From Neolewinella agarilytica (lineage in GTDB: Bacteria; Bacteroidota; Bacteroidia; Chitinophagales; Saprospiraceae), in assembly GCF_900110645.1 (NCBI RefSeq), contig NZ_FOFB01000005.1, positions 186,001 through 250,000 of the forward strand: a DNA stretch of 64,000 nt. Direction: 5' to 3'. This document shows, one piece after another, positions 29,935 to 52,993 of the stretch. The notes beneath the pieces were generated by a model. The model was given only the letters and a program-made list of their open reading frames with translations, did no database searches and was not told where the DNA came from. The position numbers and the translations under genes were made by a program. Numbering within the stretch: the first letter of the stretch is position 1; every line of letters starts with the position of its first letter.

Positions 29935-30152
29935 AGTGAGTCTTTGTAGGTACTGCTAAGAAGTATATGTCAATCACCTCCCCCACTCCTTGTTGTCTTT
30001 TCTTGCACTGATACATTCCCTCCGCATTCGAATTTACTTTTCAATCGAAGGAAGGAGGTGCTGCGAAATGAGCAAACCAGCACAGTACAGTACAGGACAC
30101 TAGCCTTATGCAGTTGTAATAAATTGCCTTTAAATAAAGGAATGCTCAAAAA

Positions 30153-33290: not shown

Positions 33291-34859
33291 ATGAAAAATA
33301 GTTTTTATCTAACAATACTGCTCTTGTTTGTAAGCTTTACAAGTTGTGAAAGCTTTCTTGAGGAGGACCCCAGAGATATCATTTCCCCAACGAATTTTTT
33401 CAATTCTGAGTCTGATGCCAGGGCTGCGGTTACGGGGATTTATGCAATTCTCAAGAATAATGCCATCTACGGCCAGGTTGGCCTTGATGCCTGGTATGAG
33501 AATGGTGCCGACGTCATAGGCCCTAACAGAGGTTGGGGAATTATTGCTTCCATTTGTAGTTATACAATGAATGAAGGTAATGCTGGAGATATTCAACAGC
33601 TAATGGGGATTGCACAGACCTGGAAGGATCTAAATAAAATAGTGCTCAACACTAACGTCATCTTAGATAATGTTGAGAACAACGAAAATATCCCCGCTGC
33701 GGCAAGGGGAGAAATTGTTGGTGAAGCTCTGTTTCTACGGTCCCTTGCTTTTTATCATTTGACCAATTTATGGGGAGACGTCCCCTACTATCGTGAGAAT
33801 CTCTCAATTGATGAAATTGGCAGTTTAGGCAGAACCGACAAAGATCTTATCCGAGACGAAATCTTGGTGGATTTACAGGAGGCACAAAACCTGATGTTGG
33901 ACGTTATTCCCGCCAATGAAAACGGCCGAGCCTCTAAATGGGTGGCTGCCATGGTTATGGCTAAAATCTATCTGATCCAGGAGAACTGGCAGGCAGCGAG
34001 AGATAAGAGCTTAGAGATTATCAATGACTCTCCTTATGAGATGCTGGCTGACTATGGAGAGGTGTTTAGCCCGTTTAATGAGTATAATTCAGAAATCATC
34101 TGGGAATTAGACTTTGCTAAAGATATTACCTCCGTTCTGGATGAGCCCTTCGCAGGGGCTGCTTTTGCCGGAAATGCCAACTGGCGGGCAAGTATCTTCA
34201 GCCCCCGAATTCGAGACGAACCTTTAAACAGTGGCGAAAGAGGAACGCTTCGCGACATTCTCGCCAGCCGTGGAGAAGCAATGAACGGGACAGGTCTTCA
34301 GATTCCACTCCCTGACCTGGTGAATAAGTTTCCGCTTAATGATTTGAGAAGGCCTCACAACATTATTACTAACTATCAGGGCGTAGAGTTGAAGTTCCCC
34401 TATATGCCCAAGCTCTGGAATCTTGATCTCGCTACCTCTCCACGCTTTAATCACAGTGATAACAGAATCGTATTCCGTTTATCTGATGTGTATCTGATGG
34501 CCGCTGAAGCGGAAAATGAATTGAATGGTCCCGAAAATGCTTATCAGTACATCAACGAAGTACGAAAAAGAGCATACGCCACCCAAGAAGAATGGGAATT
34601 AACCGGCCTGAGTCAGGTAGAATTCAGAAACGCTCTTCGGGATGAACGCAAATGGGAACTGGCTGGTGAAGGTCATCGCAGAATGGACTTAATCCGATGG
34701 GGAATCTTACTGGACGTGGTAAGGTCAACTGAATATCGGGTATATAACCCTGCTGAAAATATTCAGCCCTATCATGTTTTGTTACCGATTCCAACGGAGG
34801 AGTTGAACTTAAACCCGGCATTATTAACATCTGACCCAACAAATAATGGATACAGATAA
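33291..34859 (+). CDS. SusD/RagB-type glycan-binding lipoprotein (rhamnose-glycan locus)
   Basis: A 522-residue surface lipoprotein (Cys 19 in FVSFTSCESFLEEDP) of the SusD family. Marks are FLRSLAFYHLTNLWGDVPYY, the SKWVAAMVMAKIYLIQENW helices, and the C-terminal RDERKWELAGEGHRRMDLIRWG followed by HVLLPIPTEELNLNP. It lies 42 bases after the SusC gene and overlaps the next gene by 14 bases, so the three are translated together. Its ligand is predicted from the neighbouring rhamnosidases and sulfatases. Confidence 0.95.
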   Translation: MKNSFYLTILLLFVSFTSCESFLEEDPRDIISPTNFFNSESDARAAVTGIYAILKNNAIYGQVGLDAWYENGADVIGPNRGWGIIASICSYTMNEGNAGDIQQLMGIAQTWKDLNKIVLNTNVILDNVENNENIPAAARGEIVGEALFLRSLAFYHLTNLWGDVPYYRENLSIDEIGSLGRTDKDLIRDEILVDLQEAQNLMLDVIPANENGRASKWVAAMVMAKIYLIQENWQAARDKSLEIINDSPYEMLADYGEVFSPFNEYNSEIIWELDFAKDITSVLDEPFAGAAFAGNANWRASIFSPRIRDEPLNSGERGTLRDILASRGEAMNGTGLQIPLPDLVNKFPLNDLRRPHNIITNYQGVELKFPYMPKLWNLDLATSPRFNHSDNRIVFRLSDVYLMAAEAENELNGPENAYQYINEVRKRAYATQEEWELTGLSQVEFRNALRDERKWELAGEGHRRMDLIRWGILLDVVRSTEYRVYNPAENIQPYHVLLPIPTEELNLNPALLTSDPTNNGYR

Positions 34860-37032
34860 TTATCATCATCATTTCTTTTTTCGGTGGATCTTCGGCGGAC
34901 TTGCCTGTACGGTATTGGCAGGTTACCTGACGGCCTGCAAACCAGAAACGGCTAACGTCGAACAAACTGATGAATTCAGCGAGCAGGTAACTGACCTGCT
35001 CGCTAAAATGACTACGGCCGAAAAGATTGCTGAGCTAACCCAGGATGCACCAGCCAACGAGCGTTTAGGCATTCCTTTAATGCGCTACAGTGAGTGTCTT
35101 CACGGTCTTTGGATTGAAGGTGCCACGGTTTATCCTCAGGCGATTGCTCTGGGGGGCACCTGGGAGCCGGACCTCGTTCGCCAGATGACGGACATTATTG
35201 CCCGGGAGGCCCGGGCGGTCAACATCAGCCATTGCTATTCGCCGAACCTCGATGTCGTTTCGGGTGACGCCCGATACGGGCGGGTCGAAGAATCTTACGG
35301 CGAAGATCCATACCTCGTAAGCCGTATGGGAGTCGCCTTCATCGAAGGCTTACAGGGTACAGGAGAAGAGTTTCTGGACGAAAACCACCTGCTGGCCACA
35401 GCCAAGCACTTCGTCGGCTATCCCGAGAACCGAAGGGGCATCAATGGCGGATTCGTTGACATTTCTGAACGGCGCCTGAAAGAGATTTTCTTACCTCCCT
35501 TTGAAGCAGCCGTAAAGGAAGCCAGAGTAGGCAGCATTATGCCCGGCCATCAGGACATGAACGGAATTCCGCTGCATATGGACGGCGATCTGCTCAACGG
35601 CTTGTTGCGAGAAGAATGGGGCTTTAAGGGCTTTATTGTTTCTGATAACAATGATATCTCAAGACTGGAACTCATGCATCATATTGCCCGAAACAGGACC
35701 GAAGCTGCCGTGATGGGGCTGAAGGCCGGAGTTGATATGGACCTCGTTATTGGCAAAAGCCCTGAATTCTCCGCTTACATTGATCACGTGTTAGCCGATA
35801 CCCTGGCAGAAGATCCTTCTCTAATGAAGTATGTCGACCAGAGTGTGCGCCGAATTCTCACGGCCAAATATCAGCTGGGGCTCTTCGACGATGATAAGGT
35901 CTATGCCGATACTCTGGTAAGTACTCCCGAAGCACAAGAGATGGCTCTTCATCTTGCGCGTAAGGCCGTTACACTATTAAAAAACGAAGGTAATTTGCTG
36001 CCGCTCGATCCTGAAAAATTGAAGTCCGTCGCAGTAATTGGCCCTAATGCAGGTGAGGTACGTCTTGCCAACGGACGGTACACTCAGATGGGAGGATATT
36101 CCGGCATCCCACCCTACTATACATCTGTGCTTGAGGGCATCGAGGCTAAAGTGGGCAAAAAGCTGAAGGTAAACTATGCCCAGGGCTGCGATTTGAAGAG
36201 TAACTCTAAAGCTGGATTCCCGGAAGCAATAGCTGCTGCCAGACGTTCTGACGTAGTCATTCTGGCCATCGGCGGGTCTACCGTAACCTGTGGAGAAGGA
36301 AAAGATCGGGACGATCTGGACCTCTTCGGCGTTCAAAACGAATTGGTGGAGGCCATTCAACAGACCGGTAAGCCCGTTGTAGCTGTACTTCTCAATGGTC
36401 GCCCGCTCACGGTTAATTACCTGGCGGAGAATATCCCGGCGATCATCGAGGGCTGGTATCTGGGAATGCGAACCGGCGAAGCACTGGCTGACGTTATTTT
36501 TGGGGACTACAACCCTGGAGGTAAACTTACGGTATCCTTTCCCCGCTCCGTCGGGCAACTTCCCGTTACTTACCTTGAAAAACCCGATTTCGTGGGGTCC
36601 GGGAAGGGACAATACCGGTTTTCGGATAAGTCTCCGCTTTTTCCTTTTGGGTTTGGTCTTAGTTATACTACGTTCGAGTATGGGGCCCCTACCCTATCTG
36701 CTCCTACCATTCTAACGGGTGAAAGCAGCAGCGTTTCGGTTACCATAACCAACACCGGTGATCGGGCAGGAGAAGAAGTAGTACAGATGTACGTAAGGGA
36801 TGATCACGCCTCGGTAGGCCGTTACCTTAAGATGCTCAAAGGCTTTAAAAGGGTTTCCCTCGCTCAGGGAGAAACAAAAACCGTCACTTTCCCTCTTGGT
36901 TTTGAAGAACTTGCCCTGTATGATAAAGATATGGAGCGAGTGGTGGAACCCGGCACCTTCACTATTTACGTTGGCGCATCTTCACAGGCTGATGATCTTC
37001 AGGCCACCCAACTAACCGTGGCCAGGAAGTAA
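34846..37032 (+). CDS. GH3 beta-glycosidase lipoprotein
   Basis: A 728-residue glycoside hydrolase family 3 enzyme. The N-terminus ends in a lipobox (LAGYLTAC, Cys 31). Domain order: TIM barrel (about 45-370) with SECLHGLW, the form found in xylosidase-type members, KHFVGYPENRRG, and the nucleophile D267 in GFIVSDNND; an alpha/beta sandwich (about 385-600); and a fibronectin-III-like domain (about 630-720). Retaining mechanism by family. A beta-xylosidase or beta-glucosidase on the side chains of the glycan is likely; ulvan contains xylose. The start overlaps the SusD end by 14 bases. Confidence 0.92.
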   Translation: MDTDNYHHHFFFRWIFGGLACTVLAGYLTACKPETANVEQTDEFSEQVTDLLAKMTTAEKIAELTQDAPANERLGIPLMRYSECLHGLWIEGATVYPQAIALGGTWEPDLVRQMTDIIAREARAVNISHCYSPNLDVVSGDARYGRVEESYGEDPYLVSRMGVAFIEGLQGTGEEFLDENHLLATAKHFVGYPENRRGINGGFVDISERRLKEIFLPPFEAAVKEARVGSIMPGHQDMNGIPLHMDGDLLNGLLREEWGFKGFIVSDNNDISRLELMHHIARNRTEAAVMGLKAGVDMDLVIGKSPEFSAYIDHVLADTLAEDPSLMKYVDQSVRRILTAKYQLGLFDDDKVYADTLVSTPEAQEMALHLARKAVTLLKNEGNLLPLDPEKLKSVAVIGPNAGEVRLANGRYTQMGGYSGIPPYYTSVLEGIEAKVGKKLKVNYAQGCDLKSNSKAGFPEAIAAARRSDVVILAIGGSTVTCGEGKDRDDLDLFGVQNELVEAIQQTGKPVVAVLLNGRPLTVNYLAENIPAIIEGWYLGMRTGEALADVIFGDYNPGGKLTVSFPRSVGQLPVTYLEKPDFVGSGKGQYRFSDKSPLFPFGFGLSYTTFEYGAPTLSAPTILTGESSSVSVTITNTGDRAGEEVVQMYVRDDHASVGRYLKMLKGFKRVSLAQGETKTVTFPLGFEELALYDKDMERVVEPGTFTIYVGASSQADDLQATQLTVARK

Positions 37033-38191: not shown

Positions 38192-41100
38192 CTACTTCAG
38201 CCTTCTTATTTTTGATGCCACAATTTTTACGGGGCCCAGTAAGCCTGAAGGCAAAAGTTCAGAATCTTTATTCCAGTGTTTGTAACCGGCAAAGGTTACC
38301 CGCCCGGTCGGACGGGCGGTACTGTTTAAAAGCCATTCGGGCCATTGTTTTACAAGCGGTCCATTAGCTTCAAAATCTTTAGGGAATTGCTCGTCGCCAA
38401 TTAGTCTGTTGGGCCAAAGATTGGTAATCTTCAGCTCCAGCTTATTGGCACCTTCAACTACGGCATGGTCAATATTTATCCTGAATGGTGCCTTCCATAT
38501 TATACCAAGGTTCTTTCCATTTAAAATGACCTCGACGATTTCCTTCACACTACCGAGGTCTAGCTCTAAAGAAGTGCTTGATTTGAGCAGACCTGCCGGA
38601 ACGGTAAACTGTTTCTTATAACTTGCTGTACCCGAAAAATAGCGGATGTGCTTGTCTGAAGAGTTGGTCCAGGAAGACAGTTCATTAAACACTCTGTTTT
38701 CAAAATTTCTATTGGTATCAATAAAACTCACCTCCCATGCTCCGGACATCCGAATTGGCTCTGGTACTGATTTCACCTTAAGAGTTTTGGTTTTCCCCCT
38801 GGAAGTACGGTAGGTGATTTTTCCGGCCAGAGGTGTTGTCCAACTTACTTTTCCACCTTGGCTGGTAAGTTTTGGTTCTGCGGTGGGTTGGGTTAAATTT
38901 AAGGTGCTTCCGTAAGGTACATATACCGTTTCCCGCTCACCATTGGTAGAATACACGAGACGTAGGACATTATTCTCATTCGCATCCTTTTCATCAGGAA
39001 GGAGGTTGCTGACCGGGATTTCGAATACTCCGGACGCAATCATGGATTTTACTTCCCTGGAAACATCATAGACAGGATTGTTAGGAGGTATACCATCCAT
39101 TCCTCTTTCAAATTTGCCAAATACTGCTTTAAGTATTTCCAGCTTCTCATCCTCAACACCGGTAACTTCAAGGAACTCTTTTTCCATGGCGCTTTTTTCC
39201 AAAACCAAGCCTCCGGTTTTGTATCTGATCCGCAATTCCTTTTTATAACCGGGAGCCGGGTCACTCGCACTAAGTTCCCGGTTAGCTGCTATTTTTAATT
39301 TGTTGCCCTGGACGCTACTGGCGACTGCTTCTGTAACGTCTACAAGTCCGTCTGGTAAAAATGTCCCGTATTCAGCCTTGATAACCTTTAAGTTCGGAAG
39401 TGGCTCTACTTTTGGATTTTGAAGCTCCATCTCAGCGCTTACAAGGTGTTTAGCTGAAGACACGTTTTGTCTGAAAATAACGAATACAGCCCCTTCCTGC
39501 TCAAACGGAATGGATACCGTTGTCGTACCATCCTCATTCTGCTGCCATATGGCGGCCATTGTTATTTCTCCGGTTTCGGCATTCCAGAGTTCCGGCTGTT
39601 TTCCCGCCACCCGGAAGCGACAGTTTAGCTCCCGACCTTCCCTGGCCGAGTTTACCACAAAGTAAATATCTGCACCATCCTTTTTTCGGTGTATATAATC
39701 GACGTGCTCATTACTTCCTTGTTCAACTGAGAAGTCGGGGGGTAATGATCCACTCTTCAGATAGTCAAGGATGGAACCTTCTTTTATTAAGTTGTCGCCC
39801 CATAACTCTTCTGCCAGCTGCCTGACTTCCTCGTCACACGCAGGGTAATTCTTCAGGCTTGGAGATTTTTGTGGCTTTGTTCCAAAAATGATGGCTCCAC
39901 CACCTGCCAGTTCTCTTATTTTCGTGAGTGTTTCCGGTGTAACCCAAGGGGTTGGGGGAAGTACCAGAGCCCGGTATCTTTCTCCGGTTGAGGTACAAAT
40001 CAAACCTTCATTCACAGATAGTGAGCTAATCTTATTTGAGCCGATCACGTCATAATCATATCCCAAAGCCTTTACCTCCGGCATTAACAGAGCATCATTA
40101 GGAGATGATTCACCAGTAAAGACCAATACGTCGGCTACAGACCTCCCTTGTTGCAGCAGAAATTGACCCCGGCCAATGTAATCAACGAAGGGTTTTCCTT
40201 GATCCCACCAGGTGTTCAAGCGATTAAAGTCAATTCCAAAACGTTGTAAGGTCAAGCCGGGGGCTACATTCCATGGCTGATGTACGTAACTATGAAATAC
40301 AAAACGATTAATACCCTGTGCCCAGGCTAAGTCTCCTATAGCTTTAAGCGAACCAGGATGCTGAATCCACCCGCCTTCAGCAGTAAAGGCTTCAGCTTCA
40401 GCAATTGAACTCCCGTTTAACTTAGCAATGGAAGCTACAAATTTTGGGGAGTCGAAAAACGCCAGGTGTCCACTCCAAAACTCCGACATCACAATGTCTG
40501 CCTTTTCGCCAACTTGCATGTTATCGAAAGGCCCCCAATATGGCTCTGCCGAAAAACTCATTCCATATTGATGACTAAGCTTAGCAATATGCCCGTAATA
40601 ATTTTTTGCGATTAAATCGCCAATTGTGCGTCGGAAGTCCCAAAGGAACCGCTCTGTTTCTTCTCCGCTTTCAACATAGTAACCTGCAAGGGCAGGCAGG
40701 TACGCTTGGCAATCGTAGGAACGAAGCTTCTTGAACTCATTGGCAAAGCCTGAAGTCCAGTTTGCTGTACCCACCTCGTAACTATCAACATGGCAACGGG
40801 TGACTACAGTACCGATTAGTGTATCCAGTCGGCTGATAATGGGATTAATGCTTGTTTCCCAGAATAAATCAACCGCATGAGCATTCATTTTGTCACATTC
40901 TAAGCCTTGTCCACCATCACTGGGAAACCGATTCGTTTCACCCGTTGGGGTATGCCCAATTCTTAATATGACCCACTCTCCTTCAGGGGCATCCCACTCT
41001 AAGAAACCGTCAGTAGTAAACTTCGCGGTCAAATTGATTATAGTTGATTTCCTGACTATTGCCAGATCACTAACTGGTTGGTCATCAGGAGCCAGATGAT

Positions 41101-41680
41101 TACGAACTTTACCGGAAAGGCTTTTTGCACTCAAATTATCAATGCGCTCTTCTCCTTTCGGCTTTGGGAAGGCAAGTACACTAATGTCTTTGTAGTAGCC
41201 GAGTTGCGTTTCTGGTTGCGCTAACCGGCCGTTAAATATTTTACCTCCCTGATGTATTGTTTCAGTATAAACCAGTTTTTGCATGCCATATTCAGGAGTA
41301 ATCCCAGGGCCACCGGATGAGGACCAACCAGCACCATTATGAAAGCCAAGTTCAAGCCCCAGGCGCTTAGCCTCCAAAGCTGTAAAGTTTAGCAGATCCA
41401 GCCATTCAGTACTTAAATAGGGCGCAACTCCTCCGGGGTGACCTAAACTGACATTAAAAAGGATGGCTCCTTGAATTCCAACCTTTTTCATCGCCTTGAG
41501 GTCCTCTGTGATACCCGATTTGGTTACATTTCCGTTTATCCAGAACCAAATGGTGCGGGCTTTTGCCGTTGATGGAGGATGCTGAAAACCCTGTTGAAGA
41601 GATATACTTTGGGCTGCTAATGTGGGTAAAAACAAAATCCCCAGCAAGGCTACTAAAATGGTTTTGCGGAATAGCGTCAT
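38192..41680 (-). CDS. GH106 alpha-L-rhamnosidase
   Basis: A 1162-residue exported enzyme of glycoside hydrolase family 106, which removes alpha-L-rhamnose with inversion. Family marks are ARTIWFWINGNVTKSGITED, then LKAMKKVGIQGAILFNVSLG, LELGFHNGAGWSSSGGPGI and RCHVDSYEVGTANWT. FSAEPYWGP and the acidic DSYE segment are candidate catalytic parts. The C-terminal third is beta-sandwich, including a sugar-binding-like domain (LELDLGSVKEIVEVILNGK). I chose ATG at 41680, which starts a clean signal peptide (MTLFRKTILVALLGILFL); the frame is open 24 codons upstream. GH106 enzymes act on sulfated and pectic rhamnans. Confidence 0.92.
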   Translation of the reverse strand: MTLFRKTILVALLGILFLPTLAAQSISLQQGFQHPPSTAKARTIWFWINGNVTKSGITEDLKAMKKVGIQGAILFNVSLGHPGGVAPYLSTEWLDLLNFTALEAKRLGLELGFHNGAGWSSSGGPGITPEYGMQKLVYTETIHQGGKIFNGRLAQPETQLGYYKDISVLAFPKPKGEERIDNLSAKSLSGKVRNHLAPDDQPVSDLAIVRKSTIINLTAKFTTDGFLEWDAPEGEWVILRIGHTPTGETNRFPSDGGQGLECDKMNAHAVDLFWETSINPIISRLDTLIGTVVTRCHVDSYEVGTANWTSGFANEFKKLRSYDCQAYLPALAGYYVESGEETERFLWDFRRTIGDLIAKNYYGHIAKLSHQYGMSFSAEPYWGPFDNMQVGEKADIVMSEFWSGHLAFFDSPKFVASIAKLNGSSIAEAEAFTAEGGWIQHPGSLKAIGDLAWAQGINRFVFHSYVHQPWNVAPGLTLQRFGIDFNRLNTWWDQGKPFVDYIGRGQFLLQQGRSVADVLVFTGESSPNDALLMPEVKALGYDYDVIGSNKISSLSVNEGLICTSTGERYRALVLPPTPWVTPETLTKIRELAGGGAIIFGTKPQKSPSLKNYPACDEEVRQLAEELWGDNLIKEGSILDYLKSGSLPPDFSVEQGSNEHVDYIHRKKDGADIYFVVNSAREGRELNCRFRVAGKQPELWNAETGEITMAAIWQQNEDGTTTVSIPFEQEGAVFVIFRQNVSSAKHLVSAEMELQNPKVEPLPNLKVIKAEYGTFLPDGLVDVTEAVASSVQGNKLKIAANRELSASDPAPGYKKELRIRYKTGGLVLEKSAMEKEFLEVTGVEDEKLEILKAVFGKFERGMDGIPPNNPVYDVSREVKSMIASGVFEIPVSNLLPDEKDANENNVLRLVYSTNGERETVYVPYGSTLNLTQPTAEPKLTSQGGKVSWTTPLAGKITYRTSRGKTKTLKVKSVPEPIRMSGAWEVSFIDTNRNFENRVFNELSSWTNSSDKHIRYFSGTASYKKQFTVPAGLLKSSTSLELDLGSVKEIVEVILNGKNLGIIWKAPFRINIDHAVVEGANKLELKITNLWPNRLIGDEQFPKDFEANGPLVKQWPEWLLNSTARPTGRVTFAGYKHWNKDSELLPSGLLGPVKIVASKIRRLK

Positions 41681-42013
41681 GAACAAGTATTTGTTGCAAT
41701 TATTTGAACGAGACCATTTGAACTTAGGAAGGATCCTTACGGTCTTCATCAATTATGTATCACTACCGATTCTTTCAGACAAGTAAGCAGGAACCATTCA
41801 TTTAGCTTCCTACCCATGGACTATGGACAAAAGACACACCACTGATCATTTGTTAGTACTATTGTCCACTGCCCGATTCAGTATACCGAACTAATTGGTG
41901 CAAACTTCCTGTCAGGAAACGTCAGTCTCTTCCCTACCCTCTTATATAAAGTACCTACTCGCTAACTTTAAAGCAGACAGAATTCGTTAAATCGAACACC
42001 CTGAATTCCGGCG
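41681..42013. other. Gap between GH106 and permease genes
   Basis: About 330 bases that should contain the promoter of the GH106 gene (minus strand). The only structure I see is a weak pair TGGACAA/TTGTCCA (41824-41830 and 41862-41868). No operator or terminator stands out. Confidence 0.4.
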
Positions 42014-43423
42014 CTAAGCTCGTTGTTGCCACTTCCTGCTGAAAACCAGAAACAGCACGCCACAAAGCAACCAGGCCGGCAGTGTTACGAAGCTGACAAA
42101 AACATCAAATTGCCACGAAAGGAAGTAAAACAGTCCAAAACTGATCGCCCACGCCCAGAAGACAGCCGGGTTAAATTGTATACCAGCGAGCTCAGCATAA
42201 TTTTTCCGGATTCCTGCCTTCTTATGGAAAAAGTGTTCGAACACAATAACGGCGCCAAATGGTGCAAGAATAAAGCCGTAAAAGCCAACAAACCCGAGTA
42301 ATTGCATGGCAAATGCGGGGAAAAGGCCAGCTACTGTGGCAAGTGCTCCGGCTACCAAAGTGCCCCACGCTGCAGGGCTTTTAGGTAACAGGGTCTGAAA
42401 AGCAAGACCTGCACGGTAAATTGTAGGGTTTGCTGTAGTCCATCCGGCCAGAACTACGGCAATAATGCCGAACCACCCAATCGCATTATAAGCCAGTGGC
42501 CCGGGTGCGACCTTAATGTCTCCGCTTGATAGCATATCAAGCCCAGCAGGAGTCTTAAGAAAGGCAGCGAAAAGGAGCGCTGCAGCAATCCAGGCCATGT
42601 AATGACCTACATACATACCCGCTGCAGTCGTCCAGCCAGAACTGGCTTTCTTGGCATATCGAAACACCGAAAGATCCGACATCCCAACGTGCATGGCCGC
42701 ATTGGCAAACCAACTCCAGAGAACTACGTGCCAGAAGGTAAACTTGATCTGTCCTCCCATCGGTTGGCCCCCTTCGCCCCAAATATCCCAAAACTGACTA
42801 AAACTGTTGACTCCGAGCTGATTAAGTGCGACTATGCCGCAAACGATAAATGCCAGAACAATGACGGGCGACATCCAGTTAGCTGCCTTTGAAACAGTGT
42901 CATAACCACTGGCGGCAATAAAGGTCGTAACTGCGCCAACGGTGAGTACAATCAAAATATAGGTAATGCCATTGGGGCCAACATCATCAAGTGCCGGCAT
43001 TTCCATCCCCAAAGGAATGCCAATGGCTGTAGCCGAAACAGTAAACATAGAACCCGCCAGGAAGCAGAAAAGCACCCCATTGGCAACGTTATAAAATTTC
43101 ACCAGGGTCGTTCCACTGATCTTCTCCAACTGGAAGTACAGCGTAAGACGGTTTTTAACTGCAATTTCTGCCGTCAAAAAACGCCAACAGAGGACGGCAA
43201 GAAAATTACCAAGCAGGAGCCCTACAATCAGGTCAAATGCACTAACACCCGCAGTAAGAAATAACGGACCAATCATGAATTCAGTACCCGCTGCATGCTC
43301 ACCTGCATACATGCCCAGGAAGCTCCCCCACCCTTTCCATTTGGATTGTGGAACTGGTTCGCGTTCAAATTCGCCCCCACCGGGGTTTTCAATAAGAGCT
43401 TCTTCGTTAGTCTTTTTTAGCAT
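42014..43423 (-). CDS. NCS1-like permease in the rhamnose operon
   Basis: A 469-residue inner-membrane transporter of the NCS1 (nucleobase/cation symporter) type, with about 12 hydrophobic segments. It resembles cytosine/purine permeases in overall plan (GSFLGMYAGEHAAGTEFMIG at the N-terminus, GYDTVSKAANWMSPVIVLAF, and WTTANPTIYRAGLAFQ). It lies 80 bases downstream of rhaB on the same strand, and no other sugar transporter is in the window, so it may carry L-rhamnose across the inner membrane in place of RhaT or an MFS carrier. The substrate is inferred from position alone. Confidence 0.82.
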   Translation of the reverse strand: MLKKTNEEALIENPGGGEFEREPVPQSKWKGWGSFLGMYAGEHAAGTEFMIGPLFLTAGVSAFDLIVGLLLGNFLAVLCWRFLTAEIAVKNRLTLYFQLEKISGTTLVKFYNVANGVLFCFLAGSMFTVSATAIGIPLGMEMPALDDVGPNGITYILIVLTVGAVTTFIAASGYDTVSKAANWMSPVIVLAFIVCGIVALNQLGVNSFSQFWDIWGEGGQPMGGQIKFTFWHVVLWSWFANAAMHVGMSDLSVFRYAKKASSGWTTAAGMYVGHYMAWIAAALLFAAFLKTPAGLDMLSSGDIKVAPGPLAYNAIGWFGIIAVVLAGWTTANPTIYRAGLAFQTLLPKSPAAWGTLVAGALATVAGLFPAFAMQLLGFVGFYGFILAPFGAVIVFEHFFHKKAGIRKNYAELAGIQFNPAVFWAWAISFGLFYFLSWQFDVFVSFVTLPAWLLCGVLFLVFSRKWQQRA

Positions 43424-43503: not shown

Positions 43504-44910
43504 TCAGGATGCCTGCTCGCTGTCAGTCGTAGCAGGTTCCAAAGAAAGAATAAACGGCCGATGCTTTTTCAAGCCGTAGTTCTTTTTCAAAAACTGTGCG
43601 TTGAGCTGCTTGTCGGAAATACAAATTGCAGCACCCAGGGCCGAGCCCAGGGAGGAATTTGTTGTCCGTATCTTGAATTCCCGGAAATGATGAGTTAATA
43701 GATTGATGTAAACATCGTTGTCGCTAAAGCCCCCATCAACGAAAATTTTCTTTAAAGCCTGTTTACCTGAAGCAGCACGAATATTATCGGCTTGCAGCCT
43801 GACGAGCTCCTCCAGCAGGTGATGGTACGCATACTCATAACTGGTACCAGGGGGAATCACAGTTTGCTCCGGACCTTCCGTTATTATTGCTTCAAGGTGG
43901 AACCATGGCCTGAAGTCTTCAAGAATATGCTGGTAGGTAGCAATGTTGAATTTCACCTTTTTATGCTCGCTTACTTCAACCCCAAAATGATCCGCTAGCC
44001 GTTGGGTCTGAATTTTATACTCTTCTCCCAGGAATAAGCGGGCAGCCTTTACCGGATTACCATCAATACGCATGTAGTTGATGCAATTGGCACGCTGGTC
44101 TTCAATAGATAAGGCTCCCTCAGCAAAAGGATTCAGGGAAACACTCCAGGTGCCCGTAGAGACCAGAATGAAGGGCTTACCCTGGCTTCTTATGTAGGGT
44201 AAAAGAGCTGCCGAACTGTCGTGAACACCAACCCCGATTTTGATTCGCTTGCCACTAAAGTTCATGTTAATGCTCGTCTCAGTGGAAACGATTGGTGGAA
44301 GTATCCGATGTAATTCTTCTTCGTAAACCCAGTCGTGGTAGTCTTTCTTCCGATAGTCCCATAGCGCAGTATGACACCCAATACTGGTATACTCACTTAT
44401 GGGGATGCCGGTAAAAACGTAACTGAGAAACTGCGGAAGGTGTAGCGAGTACCTGATCTGAGCAAATATTTCCGGTTTGCGATTCTTGAGCCAGTAGAGC
44501 TGCATTCCGGAATTGAGCATCCCTGCATTGTTGGAACCAGTATGGGTGGTAAAGTCTGATTCAGGGCCGAAACGATCGTAAAAACCCTCTACCAGGTCCT
44601 GAGGCAGCGGTTTATTGTAATTGTAAAGTGGTGTAAGCACATCACCATCCGCATTCAGGTGCACAAAACTGGCACCGTAGCTGGAAAAGTTGATCGCTTG
44701 CACATCAAAGGTTTCTGCTTCCAGAATCCGGTAAAAAACTTCCTGTAGCCAGGTCGTCAGAGCACTAATATCTTCCGTTGGAAAGCCGTCTTCATCCTCG
44801 ATCATCGGGAAGGAAACGTACTCCCGATGCACTTCACGTAAGTCCTCGTCGAAGAGGAAGAACTTCTTGTTGGTTCGGCCGATGTCAAATATGGCAGTTA
44901 CAGGAAGCAA
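43504..44910 (-). CDS. rhaB: FGGY-family kinase, likely L-rhamnulokinase
   Basis: A 468-residue carbohydrate kinase of the FGGY family. N-terminal phosphate loop AIFDIGRTNKKFF, hexokinase-type fold, GVGVHDSSAALLP, and adenosine motif VSTGTWSVSLNP, with IFVDGGFSDNDVYINLL near the C-terminus. It should phosphorylate L-rhamnulose at O1 with ATP. A fuculose or xylulose kinase is possible by sequence, but the flanking RhaI, RhaEW and RhaM fix the pathway. The frame has a stop five codons before the TTG at 44910 and no ATG before the conserved core, so TTG must be the start. Confidence 0.88.
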   Translation of the reverse strand: MLPVTAIFDIGRTNKKFFLFDEDLREVHREYVSFPMIEDEDGFPTEDISALTTWLQEVFYRILEAETFDVQAINFSSYGASFVHLNADGDVLTPLYNYNKPLPQDLVEGFYDRFGPESDFTTHTGSNNAGMLNSGMQLYWLKNRKPEIFAQIRYSLHLPQFLSYVFTGIPISEYTSIGCHTALWDYRKKDYHDWVYEEELHRILPPIVSTETSINMNFSGKRIKIGVGVHDSSAALLPYIRSQGKPFILVSTGTWSVSLNPFAEGALSIEDQRANCINYMRIDGNPVKAARLFLGEEYKIQTQRLADHFGVEVSEHKKVKFNIATYQHILEDFRPWFHLEAIITEGPEQTVIPPGTSYEYAYHHLLEELVRLQADNIRAASGKQALKKIFVDGGFSDNDVYINLLTHHFREFKIRTTNSSLGSALGAAICISDKQLNAQFLKKNYGLKKHRPFILSLEPATTDSEQAS

Positions 44911-44961: not shown

Positions 44962-46239
44962 TTAGAGCCCCGTAGCTACAGTATGCATACCTCTTTCTCT
45001 AATCAGATTTTCCCGGACCTTAAGGCTGCGGTAGGCTGCCAGAGGAGAAAGAGCTCCTCCCCTGCTGAGTCGGGCACGTTGTAGTAACGGACGGACATCG
45101 GTTCGATATGCTTCCTGGAGAATTTCCTGACATTTTACGACATCGTGATTCAATTGGGCTTCGCTGAGGGCAATCTGGTCTATCAATAGGGCTTTGGCAT
45201 AGGCTTCCTGGATGGCTTCAAGGCTCTGGATAAGATCCTCCAGGGGGTCTTTAATATTGTGGCTTGCGTCAATCATCCAAGCCAGGTTGGGGTTTTCGGG
45301 GTTATGGCGCATGCCGTAAACAAGTTCGTTGAAAATCAGGAACAGCGCATAGGGTTTAATACTACCCACGGTCAGGTCGTCGTCTCCATACTTGCTGTCA
45401 TTAAAGTGGAACCCACCGAGTTTTCCCTTTGCCATCAGAGTGGCAACTATCTGCTCAATATTAGTATTCGGAAGATGATGTCCCAGATCAACCAGAGTGT
45501 AAGCTCGGTCTCCGCAAGCGTTAGCGAGCATGAAACTGGTACCCCAATCCATGATCACTGTGCTGTAAAAGTTAGGTTCGTAGGGTTTATACTCAATCAG
45601 AAGACTCCAGTCTTCGGGCAGGGCAGTATAGATTTCCTGGCAACTCTTTTCCGTCTGAGCTAAAGCTTTCTGGAAGGAGCGCTGACCGGGGAAGCTGGTA
45701 CCATCAGCCAACCATATTGTAAGACTTTTAGAACCGAGCTTTTCACCAATCCGAACTACCTCCTGGTTGTGCTGGACTGCCTGTGCACGGATGGCCTCAT
45801 CTGTATTGGCCAAAGAGCCATGCTTGTAGCTGTACTTACTTCCTGGTTGGTCTTGAAAAGTATTGGAATTTATCGCGTCAAAAACGATGCCGTTGCGGTT
45901 CGCAATTTGCTTAACGGCAGCATAGTCCTGTGGAGTGTCCCAGGGTATGTGCAAGGAGACGGCGCCAGCGGTTTGCGTCAGGGCATGAAGAATGCCAACA
46001 TCATCCATTTTTTGCTCAAGATTTCCTGGTTCTCCGTGAAAGCTAAACCGGCCAAATCGGGTTCCGCCAGCTCCGAGAGCCCAGCTGGGTACAGCTACTT
46101 GAAAATCAGCAAGACTTTTCACCAATGACTCGACGTCTGTACCGGAACGGCTCAATTTATTGGCTAGGTAATTAAAGTCTGCCTCATGGTCGTTCAGATT
46201 GCCGTTTGCGGAAGCTATTTGGTCTTTGGTTAGTTGCAT
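44962..46239 (-). CDS. rhaI: L-rhamnose isomerase (RhaI type)
   Basis: A 425-residue cytoplasmic TIM-barrel isomerase that converts L-rhamnose to L-rhamnulose with two divalent metals. It is of the Pseudomonas stutzeri RhaI type, not E. coli RhaA. Metal-ligand regions are visible: SLLIEYKPYEPNFYS (Glu), YTLVDLGHH (Asp), GGFHFNDSKYGDDD (His and Asps) and WMIDASHN (Asp). The N-terminal FSFHGEPGNLEQKMDD and SLHIPWD are typical. RhaB follows after 51 bases; the fused aldolase gene lies upstream beyond a hairpin repeat. Confidence 0.94.
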   Translation of the reverse strand: MQLTKDQIASANGNLNDHEADFNYLANKLSRSGTDVESLVKSLADFQVAVPSWALGAGGTRFGRFSFHGEPGNLEQKMDDVGILHALTQTAGAVSLHIPWDTPQDYAAVKQIANRNGIVFDAINSNTFQDQPGSKYSYKHGSLANTDEAIRAQAVQHNQEVVRIGEKLGSKSLTIWLADGTSFPGQRSFQKALAQTEKSCQEIYTALPEDWSLLIEYKPYEPNFYSTVIMDWGTSFMLANACGDRAYTLVDLGHHLPNTNIEQIVATLMAKGKLGGFHFNDSKYGDDDLTVGSIKPYALFLIFNELVYGMRHNPENPNLAWMIDASHNIKDPLEDLIQSLEAIQEAYAKALLIDQIALSEAQLNHDVVKCQEILQEAYRTDVRPLLQRARLSRGGALSPLAAYRSLKVRENLIRERGMHTVATGL

Positions 46240-46464: not shown

Positions 46465-48570
46465 TTATCTCACAAACGCAGTGGCCATTCCTCCGTCAAC
46501 GTTAATTATATTTCCGGTTGTTTTGCTCAATAAGCCTACGCAGGCATATACTCCGTCAGCAATGTCCTCGGGCCGGATGATTTCGTTTAGGAGGTTGCGC
46601 TTAGCATAGTGAGCGGGCAGTTCATCGACCGTGATGCCGTAGGCTTTTGCACGCCCTTCCGCCCATTTCCCTTCCCATATTTTAGAGCCAATAATCACTC
46701 CGTCAGGGTTTACGGTATTGACGCGAATATGGTCTTTTCCGAGTTCTGCTGCCAGTAAACGTGCCATGTGTTGTTGGGCCGCTTTGGCGGTGCCGTAGCC
46801 AACGTTATTGGGCCCGGAAACCAAACCATTTTTGCTGGCAATACTAACGAAATCACCGCCGGTGCCTTGGTCCCGCATAACGCGAACAGCCTCCTGAGCG
46901 AGCATGAACTGTCCTTTCACAAGGACATTTTGCAGAATGTCCCAATCTTTTTGAGTATGGTCTTCTAGCGGCTTAGAGATCGCCAGACCGGCAGAGTGAA
47001 CCACAATGTCCACACCGCCAAAATTCAAAGAGGCTTTATCGAAAGCCTTCTCGATAGAGCTGGCATCAGTTACATCACAAACGGCGAAGGTAGACTGATC
47101 GCGACCATAAGATTCATTGGCCTGCTTGAGTGCGTCTTCGTTGATGTCGGAGAGCACTACCACCGCACCTTCTGCAACCAGCTTGTCGGCAATGGCTTTA
47201 CCGATGCCACCGCCTGCACCGGTCACCAGGGCGACTTTACGGCTAAGGGGTTTCTCGGCGGGCATCCGCTGTAGTTTGGCTTCCTCCAGCAACCAGTATT
47301 CAATATCAAAAGCTTCCTGCCGCGGCAGCGCAGTGTACTCCGATATTGCTTCTGCACCGCGCATTACATTAATGGCGTTGATGTAGAATTCACTCGCTAC
47401 GCGGCTGGTCTGTTTGTTCTTCGCAAAGCTAAACAGACCTACACCGGGATAAAGAATAATCACCGGGTTGGGGTCACGCACCGCAGGGCTGTTGTCCCGC
47501 TTGTGGTCATCGTAATATTTCTGGTAGCCTTTGCGGTAATCAGCGAAGGCACCTTCCAGTTTTTCGAGGATAGCAGAGCGATCGCTCAGATCTTCGCTTG
47601 GGTCGAGATCGAGCACCAGGGGCTGGATTTTTGTCCGTAGGAAATGGTCCGGGCAGGAAGTTCCCATCGGAGCCAGGCGATCAATGTCGTGGCTGTTGAT
47701 GAATTGCATGACCACATCGGTGTCCTGAAAGGTTCCAACCTGGCGCGCCTGACTGCTCGTAAGGCCACGGAGCAATGGCATCAATTTACCAGCCTGTGCT
47801 TTACGGGCATTGGGGGCGAGACTCTTGACGCGCTGACCGCCGAATACATTGTCTCCCTGTGCTTTAACACGATCCTCAATATACTGGCTGGCCATCTCAA
47901 TAACCTCCAGACTGTTCATGTAACTTTCATAACTGGTGTTTCCCCAGGTGAAAAGTCCATGGCTGCCGAGGACAATACCGCGGATACCAGGATTGTCCGC
48001 CAGGCACTTTTCGAGTTGAAGGCCCAGGTCGAAACCCGGCCGCTGCCAGGGAACCCACCCCATGGTGTCTCCCCATATTTCTTTAGTTATTTTTTCACTG
48101 TCTTTTGCAGCGGCAACGGCGATGAGCGCGTCCGGGTGCAGGTGATCAATGTGTTTAAAGGGCAGGAGGCCATGAAGTGGCGTATCGATAGAAGGCGCTT
48201 TGGACTCAAGGTCGTAGATGCAATGATTGAACAGGCCCACCATTCGGTCTTCGTCATGCAAACCACCGTACACCTTTTTAAGATTGCGCAAGCGTTCAGT
48301 GTATAGCCCTGCAATACCTTTCCGGGTAAGGGTGCCGATATCTCCACCAGAACCTTTCACCCACATGATCTCTACTTCCTCACCAGTAAGCGGATCTTTT
48401 TCAATGGTTTTACAGCTGGTGTTTCCGCCGCCATAGTTGGTGATGCGCAGGTCAGCGCCTAAAATATTGGAACGGTAAAGGAACAGTGCCACCTGGTCAT
48501 CTCCCAGAGAGGCTGCATGGGCTTCGTCCCAAAGGTAATCTACGTGTTTGAAGGTGGTAGAAGTTGTCAT
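46465..48570 (-). CDS. rhaEW: Rhamnulose-1-P aldolase / lactaldehyde dehydrogenase fusion
   Basis: A 701-residue fusion. Residues 1 to about 420 form a class II aldolase/adducin-type domain with zinc histidines in KHIDHLHPDA and VLGSHGLFTWG, which splits L-rhamnulose 1-phosphate to dihydroxyacetone phosphate and L-lactaldehyde. Residues about 440-701 form an SDR domain (LVTGAGGGIGKAIAD, catalytic Ser in FVSIASKNG, YGTAKAAQ) that should oxidise lactaldehyde to L-lactate with NAD. The fusion is a known architecture (RhaEW) in several phyla. It is the first gene of the minus-strand rha group, divergent from the GntR regulator. Confidence 0.93.
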   Translation of the reverse strand: MTTSTTFKHVDYLWDEAHAASLGDDQVALFLYRSNILGADLRITNYGGGNTSCKTIEKDPLTGEEVEIMWVKGSGGDIGTLTRKGIAGLYTERLRNLKKVYGGLHDEDRMVGLFNHCIYDLESKAPSIDTPLHGLLPFKHIDHLHPDALIAVAAAKDSEKITKEIWGDTMGWVPWQRPGFDLGLQLEKCLADNPGIRGIVLGSHGLFTWGNTSYESYMNSLEVIEMASQYIEDRVKAQGDNVFGGQRVKSLAPNARKAQAGKLMPLLRGLTSSQARQVGTFQDTDVVMQFINSHDIDRLAPMGTSCPDHFLRTKIQPLVLDLDPSEDLSDRSAILEKLEGAFADYRKGYQKYYDDHKRDNSPAVRDPNPVIILYPGVGLFSFAKNKQTSRVASEFYINAINVMRGAEAISEYTALPRQEAFDIEYWLLEEAKLQRMPAEKPLSRKVALVTGAGGGIGKAIADKLVAEGAVVVLSDINEDALKQANESYGRDQSTFAVCDVTDASSIEKAFDKASLNFGGVDIVVHSAGLAISKPLEDHTQKDWDILQNVLVKGQFMLAQEAVRVMRDQGTGGDFVSIASKNGLVSGPNNVGYGTAKAAQQHMARLLAAELGKDHIRVNTVNPDGVIIGSKIWEGKWAEGRAKAYGITVDELPAHYAKRNLLNEIIRPEDIADGVYACVGLLSKTTGNIINVDGGMATAFVR

Positions 48571-48760
48571 TAGCGGAGGATGTTATATTTTTGCATAATT
48601 CTTAATTATCGCTAAGTTAAGAAGGGCTATAGGCAAGAGGTGTCCTGTACCATCCCGGAAGGTGAGGATGTTTTTTGGCTGCTCTTCTGAAGGTTGTTTG
48701 CTTTTCTTCATTCCTCGCGAAGAAATTTACCTGATCAACAATTATTTTAAGTTAAATTCT

Positions 48761-48803: not shown

Positions 48804-49850
48804 ATGGAAATATTGAAACACATTACCATTGATGAAGACTCAAGAACACCAAAATATCGTCAAATTGTAGACAGCATTATAGAAAATATTGGTACGGGTA
48901 AACTCAAGATAAATGAGAAAATCCCTTCCATAAATATGTTGAGCGAAGAGTTTTCCCTTTCGCGTGACACGGTGGAGAAAGCGTACAACATCCTGAAGGA
49001 ACGAAGGATAATCACTTCCGTAAAGGGAAAAGGTTTTTACGTCGTCAAAACACCACTGATCTCTAAGCTTAATGTCTTGTTCCTCATCAATAAGTTGAGC
49101 GCTTACAAGATGAGAATCTACAATTCCTTCATTGCTGCCATCGCCGAAGAAGCTCATACTGAGCTTAATATATACCATTGCGACGAGTCTTTATTTCTAA
49201 AACTCCTTAGCAAGGCAGAGAAGTCTTATGACTTTTATGTGATTATGCCTCATTTCAAGACCAATTCATTAAAGCACGCCAGTACAACAGACGAGGTTTC
49301 CAAAGCACTGAACGCAATTCCGGCACACAAACTTTTAATTCTGGACAACTACCTGCAGGGCCTCGAAAAGAAGTGTGCTCAATTGTACCAGGACTTCGAA
49401 AATGATATATACGAAGCCCTTATTCAGGGGCAAGACAAAATATCCCGCTATAAAAAACTGGTTATCGCCTATCCTTCTAACTCAGTTTACCCCTATCCTA
49501 AGCGTATTCTTCATGGGTTTCGAAAGTTTTGTGTTGAAGCTAAGATGCCCTTTGCCGTAATTGAAGAAATTGAAGAAGATATGCCACTTGAACCTGGCAG
49601 TCTCTACCTTACTATTCCGGAAACAGATCTTGTTAACGTTACTAAGGCTGCTCGTGACCAGGGCTTGATCTTGGGCAAAGACGTCGGAATTATGTCTTAT
49701 AATGAAACACCCCTTAAAGAGCTTTTGGGCATTACTACTATATCAACTGATTTTTCGGAAATGGGAAGAATGGCAGCTGAGATGATAATAAATAAGCGAC
49801 AGGAAGAGGTGAAAAATCCGTTTACGCTGCTTGACCGGGATTCGTTGTAA
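48804..49850 (+). CDS. GntR-type regulator with LacI-like sensor domain
   Basis: A 348-residue regulator. Residues 10-75 are a GntR winged helix (DSRTPKYRQIVDSIIENIG, then INEKIPSINMLSEEFSLSRD), and residues about 85-340 a periplasmic-binding/LacI-like sugar-sensing domain (KLNVLFLINKLSAYKM, DVGIMSYNETPLKELLGITT, FSEMGRMAAEMII). This architecture is typical of Bacteroidota sugar regulators, including those linked to rhamnose or arabinose use. It is divergent from rhaEW and likely binds L-rhamnose or a pathway intermediate and controls the rha genes and its own. Confidence 0.9.
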   Translation: MEILKHITIDEDSRTPKYRQIVDSIIENIGTGKLKINEKIPSINMLSEEFSLSRDTVEKAYNILKERRIITSVKGKGFYVVKTPLISKLNVLFLINKLSAYKMRIYNSFIAAIAEEAHTELNIYHCDESLFLKLLSKAEKSYDFYVIMPHFKTNSLKHASTTDEVSKALNAIPAHKLLILDNYLQGLEKKCAQLYQDFENDIYEALIQGQDKISRYKKLVIAYPSNSVYPYPKRILHGFRKFCVEAKMPFAVIEEIEEDMPLEPGSLYLTIPETDLVNVTKAARDQGLILGKDVGIMSYNETPLKELLGITTISTDFSEMGRMAAEMIINKRQEEVKNPFTLLDRDSL

Positions 49851-49904: not shown

Positions 49905-52775
49905 CTACAGCTCAAACGAAACGGTGTAAACACCAGACCCGAGAGTTAAAGAATCCATTGGTGATGGAGCAAAAGTATCCTTTTTCCACTCCGTACCATT
50001 TACCTTAACAGTACCTGCTTTGGCTGCTGTGAGCGGTAATATCGCAGATGTATTAAACGGAATCGAAAGCTTCATAGAAAAAGAATCGCCTTCCTTTCTC
50101 CAATTATTTTTAATTAAACCGTAAGGTGATTGAATTTCCGCATCTGCATAGTTAATTGTTTTTGGTATTATAGGGTCGATGACAAACTGCTTGTATCCGG
50201 GATCGGCAATCATTGGCCTGATGCCTCCAAGCCGCTCATGAAAGTAAGCGGCAAATCCGCTGTGCATCGGGTGGTTAAGTGAGTTGCCGAATTCTATATT
50301 CTCTGACCAGTCCCACTGCCGCTCGGGCCAGGTAGTAAAACCGGTATGTAATACGAAAGCCTGACTGGGAAAGTCAGGGTGTGTTAATACACTGTATGCA
50401 AGATCAGCCATGCCGTGGTCACTAAGTACGGAATACAAGTACCGATTACCGTGAATACCAACGGTATGATGTCCGCTATTGACCACATCGATGTCATAAA
50501 CAAGGCCATTCACTACATTTTCTTCTTCCTCTTCGGGCACCAGGCCAAACTGAAGGGCCATCACTGTTGCCGTCTGGCTCCCATACCAGGAGTAATTGGT
50601 TCCTGCCACTTGCTCCAGATATACACGGTTAAAGGCTGTATGTAAAGATTCTATCTCGCTGTCCAGAAAACCAGCATATTCTTTTTCGCCCATTACCTCT
50701 GAAAACGCTCTCATAACCTTGAGAATATCATAGAAGTAGGCAGTAGCTGAAACTACGGGGTGACATTCCATAGCAGAAGGATTGGACTTGCGATCCCAGC
50801 GCGGCGGACACCAGTCCCCCATTCCGTTTTCGATAATTCCATCAGCGTTTCTGAAACTCAGGTAGTAAGCCGTGAGCTGTTTCATGTCAGCGTAATATTC
50901 CGAGACGATTTGCTCATTACCATAATGAAGATAATGATACCAGGGTAGGTAAATTGCGGCAATTCCCCAATCAAGCTTTGCGATAGTCGACGTACGCCGG
51001 CCGGGGGCGATCATCGTCGGAACGCTGAATTTGTTTTTATCGTTTCCTCCTTTTACTGACCTGAACTGCGTTCGGATATCGTTCATATATTTTTCATAAA
51101 AAGCCGCTACATCGTAGTTATAAAGAATGAACTCCGCAGTGGCGTGGGCATCTCCCAGCCATCCACATTTTTCACGCTGCGGGCAATCTTCCGGGATGCC
51201 GTGCAAATTGTCAATAACGGTCCATTTACTTACTTCAGCCATTCGGTTTACCAGGGAGTCAGAACATTGGAAAGAGCCAGTCTCCCGGACATCTGTACTC
51301 ACCAGAAAGGCCGTAAAGTCATCTTTTTCGGGTCGGCGGCTTATGCCGGTTATTTCTGCGTAGCGAAAGCCATGGTAGGTAAAACCTGGCTCCCATGTTT
51401 CTCGTTCATTGCTTCCACATACATAAATTAGTTGTTGAGACAGCCCACTGGCACCTCCCCCTGTAGAACCCAGATGGATTGCGTTCCCGCTTCTTTTCAG
51501 GGCTTCCGTGAGCTGAAGCTGAACTTTAGTACCCTCACTTTCTTTTACACTCATGCGAATCCAGCCGGCGATGTTTTGACCAAAGTCCAGAATCCAGTTA
51601 CCATTTTCACCCCTGAATATTTCCCGGGGCTTTAATGCTTTTATTTTTCTAATCGGCGGGATTACCTGAGGTACTATTGTTCCCACTACCGGTGTAGTAA
51701 TTTTCACCTTCTGATAAATGTTGTCATCGAAGTCGTTCTCATGCCAACCTTGCTGTTCAAAACGGGCATCATAAGTCTCGCCGCCGTAGATATTGTCGAA
51801 TACGATTGGCCCGGGTATAGATTTCCACTTCGAGTCCGTAACGATTGAGCCTGTTGTCCCATCTTCATAGATTAACTTAAGCGTCATCCGGACGGCCGGC
51901 GGTCCGTAAGCCAGGCTTTTAGCGGATTCCGGATCTCTCCTGAAAGCAAGATTTTGACCATAAAAGCCACTACCCAGCTTTATACCAAGTGTATTTTGGT
52001 TTACTAGTAACTCCTCTTTTGCGTCCAGAACAACGTAGTAAGAAGTTTTGTCGTAGTTAGACGGTGCCGGATCCAACACCTGGTCTCCAATTTTTTTTCC
52101 GTTCAGGTAAAGCTCGTAATATCCCAGGCCCACAATATAAGCCCTAGCACTAGCGATTTTCTTTTTTACCTCAAAGGTGCGCCTGAAATAACCGGCAGGA
52201 AAACTGCTCACCTGAACGGGCTCTTTCATAGCACCGGTTTGGAAAAACCGGAAGCGGTGCTCTGATGTCCTTTCATCTGTCGGTACGGTAATCCACTGTG
52301 CGTCATCCCAGTCGGCCTCTCCCCCTAATCCGGTAGTAAAGAATTGTACCGGCGACCAGGCTGAGGCCACATCAGCTTCATCCCATATTTTTACTTTCCA
52401 ATTGTATCGGCGCCCGGCAGCCAGTGCCGGGCCCTCAAATAAATTATGAGTGGTACTGGTTGATAATAATTTTCCGGAATCCCATACATCCCCCTCGTCT
52501 TTTGCTAATAATTCCGGACTGGAGGCCACCAATACCCGAAAGGCGGTTTGCTGCCGATTGTAGCCTGTTGCTTTCACTACCCATGAAAACTGCGGACGAT
52601 CTCCGGCAATAACCTGTGGGTTCTCCTCATAATTACACAGCAATCGCTCGAATACAATAGCTTCCTGAGCACTATAAGCCGCGGCCCAATGGCCTGTGTC
52701 AGCAATTTTTCCGGCGCGGCCGCAGGTGCAAAGGAGTAGTAGAAAGAGCAGGGGGAGGAATAAGTTCTTTGGCAT
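49905..52775 (-). CDS. GH78 alpha-L-rhamnosidase
   Basis: A 956-residue enzyme of glycoside hydrolase family 78. Beta-sandwich domains at about 40-150 and 190-500, then an (alpha/alpha)6 barrel (about 505-860) and a C-terminal beta domain. The catalytic motif GIPEDCPQREKCGWLGDAH places the general acid near E535; the usual DERxGW reads as REKCGW. It inverts alpha-L-rhamnoside bonds. The signal peptide is short and its lipobox-like end (LLCTCGRAG) is encoded by a copy of the GC-rich repeat, with Thr at -1, which is unusual. It is convergent with the GntR gene and divergent from a sulfatase. Confidence 0.94.
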   Translation of the reverse strand: MPKNLFLPLLFLLLLCTCGRAGKIADTGHWAAAYSAQEAIVFERLLCNYEENPQVIAGDRPQFSWVVKATGYNRQQTAFRVLVASSPELLAKDEGDVWDSGKLLSTSTTHNLFEGPALAAGRRYNWKVKIWDEADVASAWSPVQFFTTGLGGEADWDDAQWITVPTDERTSEHRFRFFQTGAMKEPVQVSSFPAGYFRRTFEVKKKIASARAYIVGLGYYELYLNGKKIGDQVLDPAPSNYDKTSYYVVLDAKEELLVNQNTLGIKLGSGFYGQNLAFRRDPESAKSLAYGPPAVRMTLKLIYEDGTTGSIVTDSKWKSIPGPIVFDNIYGGETYDARFEQQGWHENDFDDNIYQKVKITTPVVGTIVPQVIPPIRKIKALKPREIFRGENGNWILDFGQNIAGWIRMSVKESEGTKVQLQLTEALKRSGNAIHLGSTGGGASGLSQQLIYVCGSNERETWEPGFTYHGFRYAEITGISRRPEKDDFTAFLVSTDVRETGSFQCSDSLVNRMAEVSKWTVIDNLHGIPEDCPQREKCGWLGDAHATAEFILYNYDVAAFYEKYMNDIRTQFRSVKGGNDKNKFSVPTMIAPGRRTSTIAKLDWGIAAIYLPWYHYLHYGNEQIVSEYYADMKQLTAYYLSFRNADGIIENGMGDWCPPRWDRKSNPSAMECHPVVSATAYFYDILKVMRAFSEVMGEKEYAGFLDSEIESLHTAFNRVYLEQVAGTNYSWYGSQTATVMALQFGLVPEEEEENVVNGLVYDIDVVNSGHHTVGIHGNRYLYSVLSDHGMADLAYSVLTHPDFPSQAFVLHTGFTTWPERQWDWSENIEFGNSLNHPMHSGFAAYFHERLGGIRPMIADPGYKQFVIDPIIPKTINYADAEIQSPYGLIKNNWRKEGDSFSMKLSIPFNTSAILPLTAAKAGTVKVNGTEWKKDTFAPSPMDSLTLGSGVYTVSFEL
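52713..52735 (+). repeat. GC-rich repeat copy inside GH78 signal peptide
   Basis: GGCGCGGCCGCAGGTGCAAA at 52713-52732 is a near-perfect match to the consensus. On the minus strand it is translated as LLCTCGRAG, residues 14-22 of the GH78 enzyme. Confidence 0.85.
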
Positions 52776-52993
52776 TGATCGGACGATTTGCCGAAAACTA
52801 AGACCCTCTGAAAAAGAAAGTGTCCTGTTCTGTACTGGCGAGCGTCTATGACAAATAACCCCGGGATATCGTATAAAGGATACACACTTCGTTTCGTCCT
52901 ACCTCTGTTTTGCTTTGAATAACTATAAATTAGCATCTACGATTTTGCCTCCGTTGAACCTGGCAAAGTATTCAGATTATTAAAAATGACTCC

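Follow-up and report, generated by a model that had tools for sequence, protein, structure and literature searches.

A comparative study of rhamnose regulons assigned L-rhamnose transport to RhaT and to carriers of the ABC and MFS types (PMC3870299), in agreement with the initial annotation of the DNA described here, which named RhaT, MFS and ABC systems as the known carriers. RhaT is an L-rhamnose:H+ symporter of the DMT superfamily (PF06379). The ABC systems RhaFGHJ and RhaSTPQ, and the MFS sugar porter RhaY, are proposed or shown L-rhamnose importers and none is NCS1-like (PMC3870299). Among NCS1 proteins, CodB is a cytosine:Na+ symporter with a LeuT-type fold (7qoa; PMC9379551) and Mhp1 is a hydantoin:Na+ symporter. 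According to a 2026 paper on a metformin carrier, the substrates of characterised bacterial NCS1 proteins are nitrogen heterocycles, plus metformin (PMC13390362). The metformin carrier, MetT, shows that substrates of NCS1 proteins can be other than heterocycles (PMC13390362). In the openly searchable literature, we found no NCS1-like protein reported to carry a sugar. Rhamnose is among the main sugars of ulvan, the polysaccharide found in the cell walls of green-tide algae. In marine ulvan degraders, rhamnose uptake across the inner membrane has been ascribed to unspecified MFS, TRAP or ABC carriers (PMC13050008).

We analysed a 64,000-nucleotide stretch of Neolewinella agarilytica DNA, referred to below as the window. 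With a probability of roughly 0.84, the product of a permease gene in this window imports L-rhamnose across the inner membrane, as part of a system for the use of rhamnose-containing glycans. The genes concerned are as follows.

30153..33248, plus strand: SusC-like TonB-dependent receptor.
33291..34859, plus strand: SusD-like glycan-binding protein.
34846..37032, plus strand: GH3 glycosidase.
38192..41752, minus strand: GH106 alpha-L-rhamnosidase, downstream of the permease gene on the same strand.
42014..43423, minus strand: NCS1-related permease of 469 amino acids, proposed L-rhamnose importer.
43504..44910, minus strand: rhaB, rhamnulokinase-like FGGY kinase (TIGR02627, 3e-14, below cut-off; PF00370, 2.5e-15).
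44962..46239, minus strand: rhaI, L-rhamnose isomerase (TIGR02629, 6e-146, below cut-off).
46465..48570, minus strand: rhaD/ADH, bifunctional rhamnulose-1-phosphate aldolase and lactaldehyde dehydrogenase (NF006191 and TIGR02632, over cut-off).
48804..49850, plus strand: GntR-type regulator with a periplasmic-binding-protein-like domain, divergent from the rha operon.
49905..52775, minus strand: GH78 alpha-L-rhamnosidase with a lipoprotein-like signal.

The permease gene is the fourth and last in the run rhaD/ADH-rhaI-rhaB-permease. The intergenic gaps are 225 nt (rhaD/ADH to rhaI), 51 nt (rhaI to rhaB) and 80 nt (rhaB to permease); the latter two bear out the initial annotation, which had the permease following rhaI and rhaB on the same strand with short spacing. 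Rhamnulokinase is the top NCBIfam match of the rhaB product. Public genomes contain 248 candidate stretches encoding relatives of the permease, and the best 80 of these are 72-86% identical to it over nearly the full length. Hence, the gene is not a chance reading frame. The block from SusC to a sulfatase spans 30153-54427. Besides the permease, it encodes SusC, SusD, GH3, a secreted protein of unknown family, GH106, the rha enzymes, the GntR regulator, GH78 and the sulfatase. There is no second inner-membrane transporter among these remaining genes, so the permease was correctly described as the only one in the block. The operon and its flanking genes are a rhamnose-glycan utilisation locus of a bacterium that nearest homologues assign to the Lewinellaceae.

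The secreted protein, of 290 amino acids (37247-38119, plus strand), is encoded between GH3 and GH106, ~4 kb from the permease gene. It has a nucleoside-hydrolase-like 'DGNSPDPDDLGA' stretch and no Pfam match. At one further locus (L120) a PF01156 nucleoside hydrolase gene is found near the permease gene.

The family libraries do not recognise the permease. Searches of Pfam and NCBIfam returned nothing at E<=1; the NCS1 model, PF02133, matched neither the permease nor any other protein of the genome, and the RhaT model PF06379 did not match the permease. Searching the PDB with the permease, directly by sequence or by profile, returned nothing, as did a search of PHROGs and single-sequence hhalign comparisons with AllW and PutP. 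Conversely, profile-profile comparison revealed a clear relationship. A profile of 34 permease homologues aligned by hhalign with 23 NCS1 proteins, taken from other genomes and E. coli, with a probability of 98.4% and an E of 1e-14 over 421 columns; the SSS control gave a probability of 1.6%. Against CodB alone the permease profile gave an E of 5e-5, centred on TM8. An AlphaFold2 model built from 29 homologues was of middling confidence (pLDDT 68, pTM 0.71). The top Foldseek match of this model was CodB (7qoa, E 8.4e-10, TM 0.60/0.69), with SSS, NSS and APC folds close behind and Mhp1 (2jln) at E 7e-6. Taken together, profile and model place the permease as a remote NCS1 relative with a predicted LeuT-type 5+5 helix fold. 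The label 'NCS1-like' given by the initial annotation thus fails at the level of the family libraries and is right at the deeper level of profile and fold.

The sodium ligands of CodB are the main-chain oxygens of Gly29, Phe32 and Asn275 and the hydroxyls of Thr278 and Thr279 (PMC9379551). On alignment, CodB Gly29, Thr278 and Thr279 correspond to permease residues G41, T329 and T330, and the threonines, which lie in TM8, are invariant in all 34 homologues. The cytosine-contacting residues Gln105, Trp108 and Phe204 of CodB are replaced by F119, L122 and N241, which are uniform within clades. This mapping was made at ~18% identity, so that the register may slip by a turn, mostly in TM3 and TM6. 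Retention of the Na2 site, which in sodium-coupled NCS1 members lies between TM1 and TM8, with loss of the base-stacking pocket fits a sodium symporter with an altered substrate. Hence, we propose coupling to Na+, and the permease is most likely a Na+-coupled symporter working by alternating access. The permease further differs from CodB in lying in sugar, not nucleobase, operons. Mhp1 and MetT share its fold class; their substrates are nitrogen compounds, whereas the permease family falls outside PF02133 and is tied to sugar genes.

We examined the neighbourhood of the permease gene in other genomes. Within 10 kb, at the best 80 of the 248 loci, we found RhaI in 77, RhaB in 76, RhaD/ADH in 74 and a GntR regulator in 62; the rha enzymes were on the permease strand every time. 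A count of neighbours made free of any hypothesis ranked the same rha families first, followed by the GntR regulator and an FMN-dependent dehydrogenase (PF01070) that is probably an L-lactate dehydrogenase of the lactate-oxidising type. Divergent homologues in other Bacteroidota families (45-51% identity) keep the rha link with a different gene order. In another family, where 61 of 118 genomes have homologues, rhaI, rhaB or rhaD/ADH was nearby at 14 of 20 sampled places. The link extends to a second phylum. Thus, in Pseudoalteromonas KG3 and Catenovulum adriaticum, genes named 'nucleoside transporter' directly follow rhaI and rhaD/ADH, and the ulvan plasmid of Alteromonas 76-1 carries one permease homologue together with rhaD/ADH (PMC6431674). 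Genomic linkage with rha genes, the absence of which had been named as evidence against rhamnose import, is therefore recurrent.

Several loci merit separate mention. On plasmids of Alteromonas, Pseudoalteromonas and Catenovulum (L230-L232) the RefSeq label 'nucleoside transporter' is probably wrong and conceals the connection with rhamnose. In two loci (L013 and L019) rhaI directly precedes the permease gene, a rhaB match is absent, and the several kb between rhaD/ADH and rhaI perhaps contain another kinase. The permease gene is distant from the rha genes in genomes G064, G162, G179 and some others. In G064 the rha operon has no carrier gene (L255, L256) and the lone permease copy is on another contig.

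Across 395 Bacteroidota genomes, we compared where the permease and RhaT occur. Permeases of clades 1 and 2 were present in 33 genomes, the aldolase fusion scored over cut-off in 69 and a strong RhaT was found in 43. RhaD/ADH accompanied the permease in 32 of its 33 genomes, in about two thirds of them within 5 kb. The 69 aldolase genomes divide into 30 with the permease only, 32 with RhaT only, two with both and five with neither; as the genomes are related, such counts overstate independence, and Fisher values computed from them disregard that relatedness and are not to be read literally. A hand count by genus gave 18 with the permease only, 18 with RhaT only and two with both, which shows that the exclusion is not confined to one lineage. 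The gene order is also similar. Operons of the RhaT type read GntR, rhaT, rhaD/ADH, rhaI, rhaB, lut or lldD; those of the permease type read GntR, rhaD/ADH, rhaI, rhaB, (lldD), permease. RhaT and the permease are unrelated in sequence and largely mutually exclusive across genomes, and they share an operon type and a proposed role. Hence, judged from gene content and order, the permease fills the place held by RhaT in other Bacteroidota.

The window's own genome encodes two divergent RhaT-family proteins. These score 71 and 91 bits, where intact strong RhaT matches reach about 175-258 bits. Both genes are within sugar-acid operons (MR/MLE enzymes, DgoK), and neither operon has an operator of the rha type. 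A separate observation concerns locus L251 (G182:C5:56000-75000), where a rha operon close to that of the window (RhaD/ADH 80%) has no permease gene, no rhaI match and a divergent RhaT-like gene nearby. This is possibly a recent swap of carriers.

The spacer between the GntR gene and rhaD/ADH contains a conserved ACGGTACAGTACAGGATA-like site. We built an operator matrix from a training set that excluded both the window and five test loci, in which the permease gene is 1.4 to 5.9 kb away from rhaB (L014, L033, L034, L040 and L065). In all five, a predicted operator was found 112-169 nt before the permease gene, with scores of 26.6-34.3. Over 1.59 Mb of real sequence, the matrix found 72 sites scoring at least 25; the reversed sequence gave none. 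The predicted operators in the window are as follows.

30080..30103, plus strand: predicted GntR operator before susC (score 25.8, the best in the window).
48637..48660, minus strand: predicted GntR operator before the rha operon (score 15.7, a weak copy).
52817..52840, minus strand: predicted GntR operator before the GH78 gene (score 16.8).

An operator directly before a separated permease gene means that the permease and the rhamnose enzymes share a predicted regulon as well as a neighbourhood. Similarly, the operators before susC and the GH78 gene indicate that the outer-membrane uptake genes and one rhamnosidase are apparently in the same regulon. The position of the sites suggests that the GntR protein binds them. 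In G064, where permease and rha genes are unlinked, no operator was found at either the rha operon or the permease gene; this case therefore lends no regulatory support. A scan for Bacteroidetes -33/-7 promoters gave one match, far from the permease locus and no more than expected by chance, and scans for sigma-70 promoters and terminators did not rise above shuffles.

The permease is locked in the rha operon of marine bacteria and there replaces the usual importer. Hence, it very probably carries L-rhamnose, and from these sequence features we infer both substrate and direction. Import of L-rhamnose, raised as a possibility in the initial annotation, is now strongly supported by the linkage in two phyla, a distribution complementary to that of RhaT and a rha operator before the permease gene.

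Other substrates have to be weighed. The permease might carry rhamnose-containing oligosaccharides or modified rhamnose (e.g. 3-sulfated or methylated) instead of, or besides, free L-rhamnose. The block encodes a sulfatase and several glycosidases, and rhamnose-3-sulfate is released on ulvan breakdown (PMC8511951). We consider this unlikely; the permease is tied to rhaI and rhaB, which act on the monosaccharide, it replaces the monosaccharide carrier RhaT, and the rhamnosidases are exported. Moreover, LeuT-fold symporters of this size usually carry small solutes. The same export signals imply a need for an importer of free sugar and so count against transport, in or out, of a downstream product such as L-lactate, L-lactaldehyde or 1,2-propanediol. 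The idea has some attraction because an LldD-like FMN-dependent dehydrogenase gene, or lutABC-like genes, accompany rhaB and the permease gene in many loci, either between the two or next to them, so that lactate is an intermediate there. However, operons of the RhaT type that lack the permease also contain lldD-like and lut-like genes, and it is against RhaT, a rhamnose carrier, that the permease is swapped, not against a lactate carrier. Since the lactate genes are common to both operon types they argue against a lactate carrier, and this explanation has lost weight to the point of seeming quite improbable.

An ordinary nucleobase or nucleoside importer, present in the operon by chance, would match the RefSeq name 'nucleoside transporter' given to the gammaproteobacterial members. 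It would also agree with the kinship to NCS1 proteins and with the secreted nucleoside-hydrolase-like gene 4 kb off. We nevertheless regard it as highly implausible. PF02133 matches are absent from the permease and from the whole genome, and the cytosine-binding residues of CodB are replaced. Furthermore, the genes that recur beside the permease gene are those for rhamnose rather than for nucleobases, and the operator is common to the permease and the rha operon.

With L-rhamnose as the preferred substrate, the locus can be read as a pathway. SusC and SusD would import fragments that contain rhamnose through the outer membrane, and the exported GH78 and GH106 rhamnosidases would release free L-rhamnose. 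The permease, its nucleobase pocket rebuilt for a deoxy-sugar, would then bring L-rhamnose into the cytoplasm. There, RhaI, RhaB and the RhaD/ADH fusion would convert it to dihydroxyacetone phosphate and L-lactate. The GntR-type regulator would govern the gene set via the GTACAGTACAGGATA-like operator.

The permease family has a third clade, of about 570 amino acids and 32-36% identity. The window's own genome encodes a paralogue of this clade (G000:C34:248956-250689; L113:8457-10190) with a mannitol dehydrogenase gene close after it. A mannitol dehydrogenase gene followed in all six cases seen, and a PfkB kinase gene was present in three of the six. The mannitol-linked paralogue has no Pfam match, PF02133 included, and such paralogues keep T329, T330 and most invariant residues. 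Because mannitol dehydrogenase and, in part, PfkB kinase genes adjoin, we read these proteins as probable polyol carriers, with mannitol the candidate substrate. In a phylogenetic tree two clades, one linked to mannitol and the other gammaproteobacterial and linked to rhamnose, split off with full or near-full support; the tree is unrooted and long branches meet. Specialisation of this NCS1-like branch for sugars and polyols looks the simplest reading. It is reasonably likely that the family forms an NCS1-related branch that has moved off nucleobases, with several L-rhamnose clades and one whose substrate is mannitol or a polyol like it, in Bacteroidota and marine Gammaproteobacteria, and that its members are now named 'nucleoside transporter' or 'hypothetical protein'. 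GapMind lists Echvi_1617 of Echinicola vietnamensis as an L-rhamnose transporter on mutant-fitness grounds. The main text of PMC9007349 does not mention Echvi_1617.

The permease is a named candidate, in many genomes, for the inner-membrane step of rhamnose uptake, and would close the gap left by unspecified carriers in ulvan degraders. If the assignment is true, misleading 'nucleoside transporter' names would be corrected, and sugars would be added to the known substrates of the NCS1 fold group.
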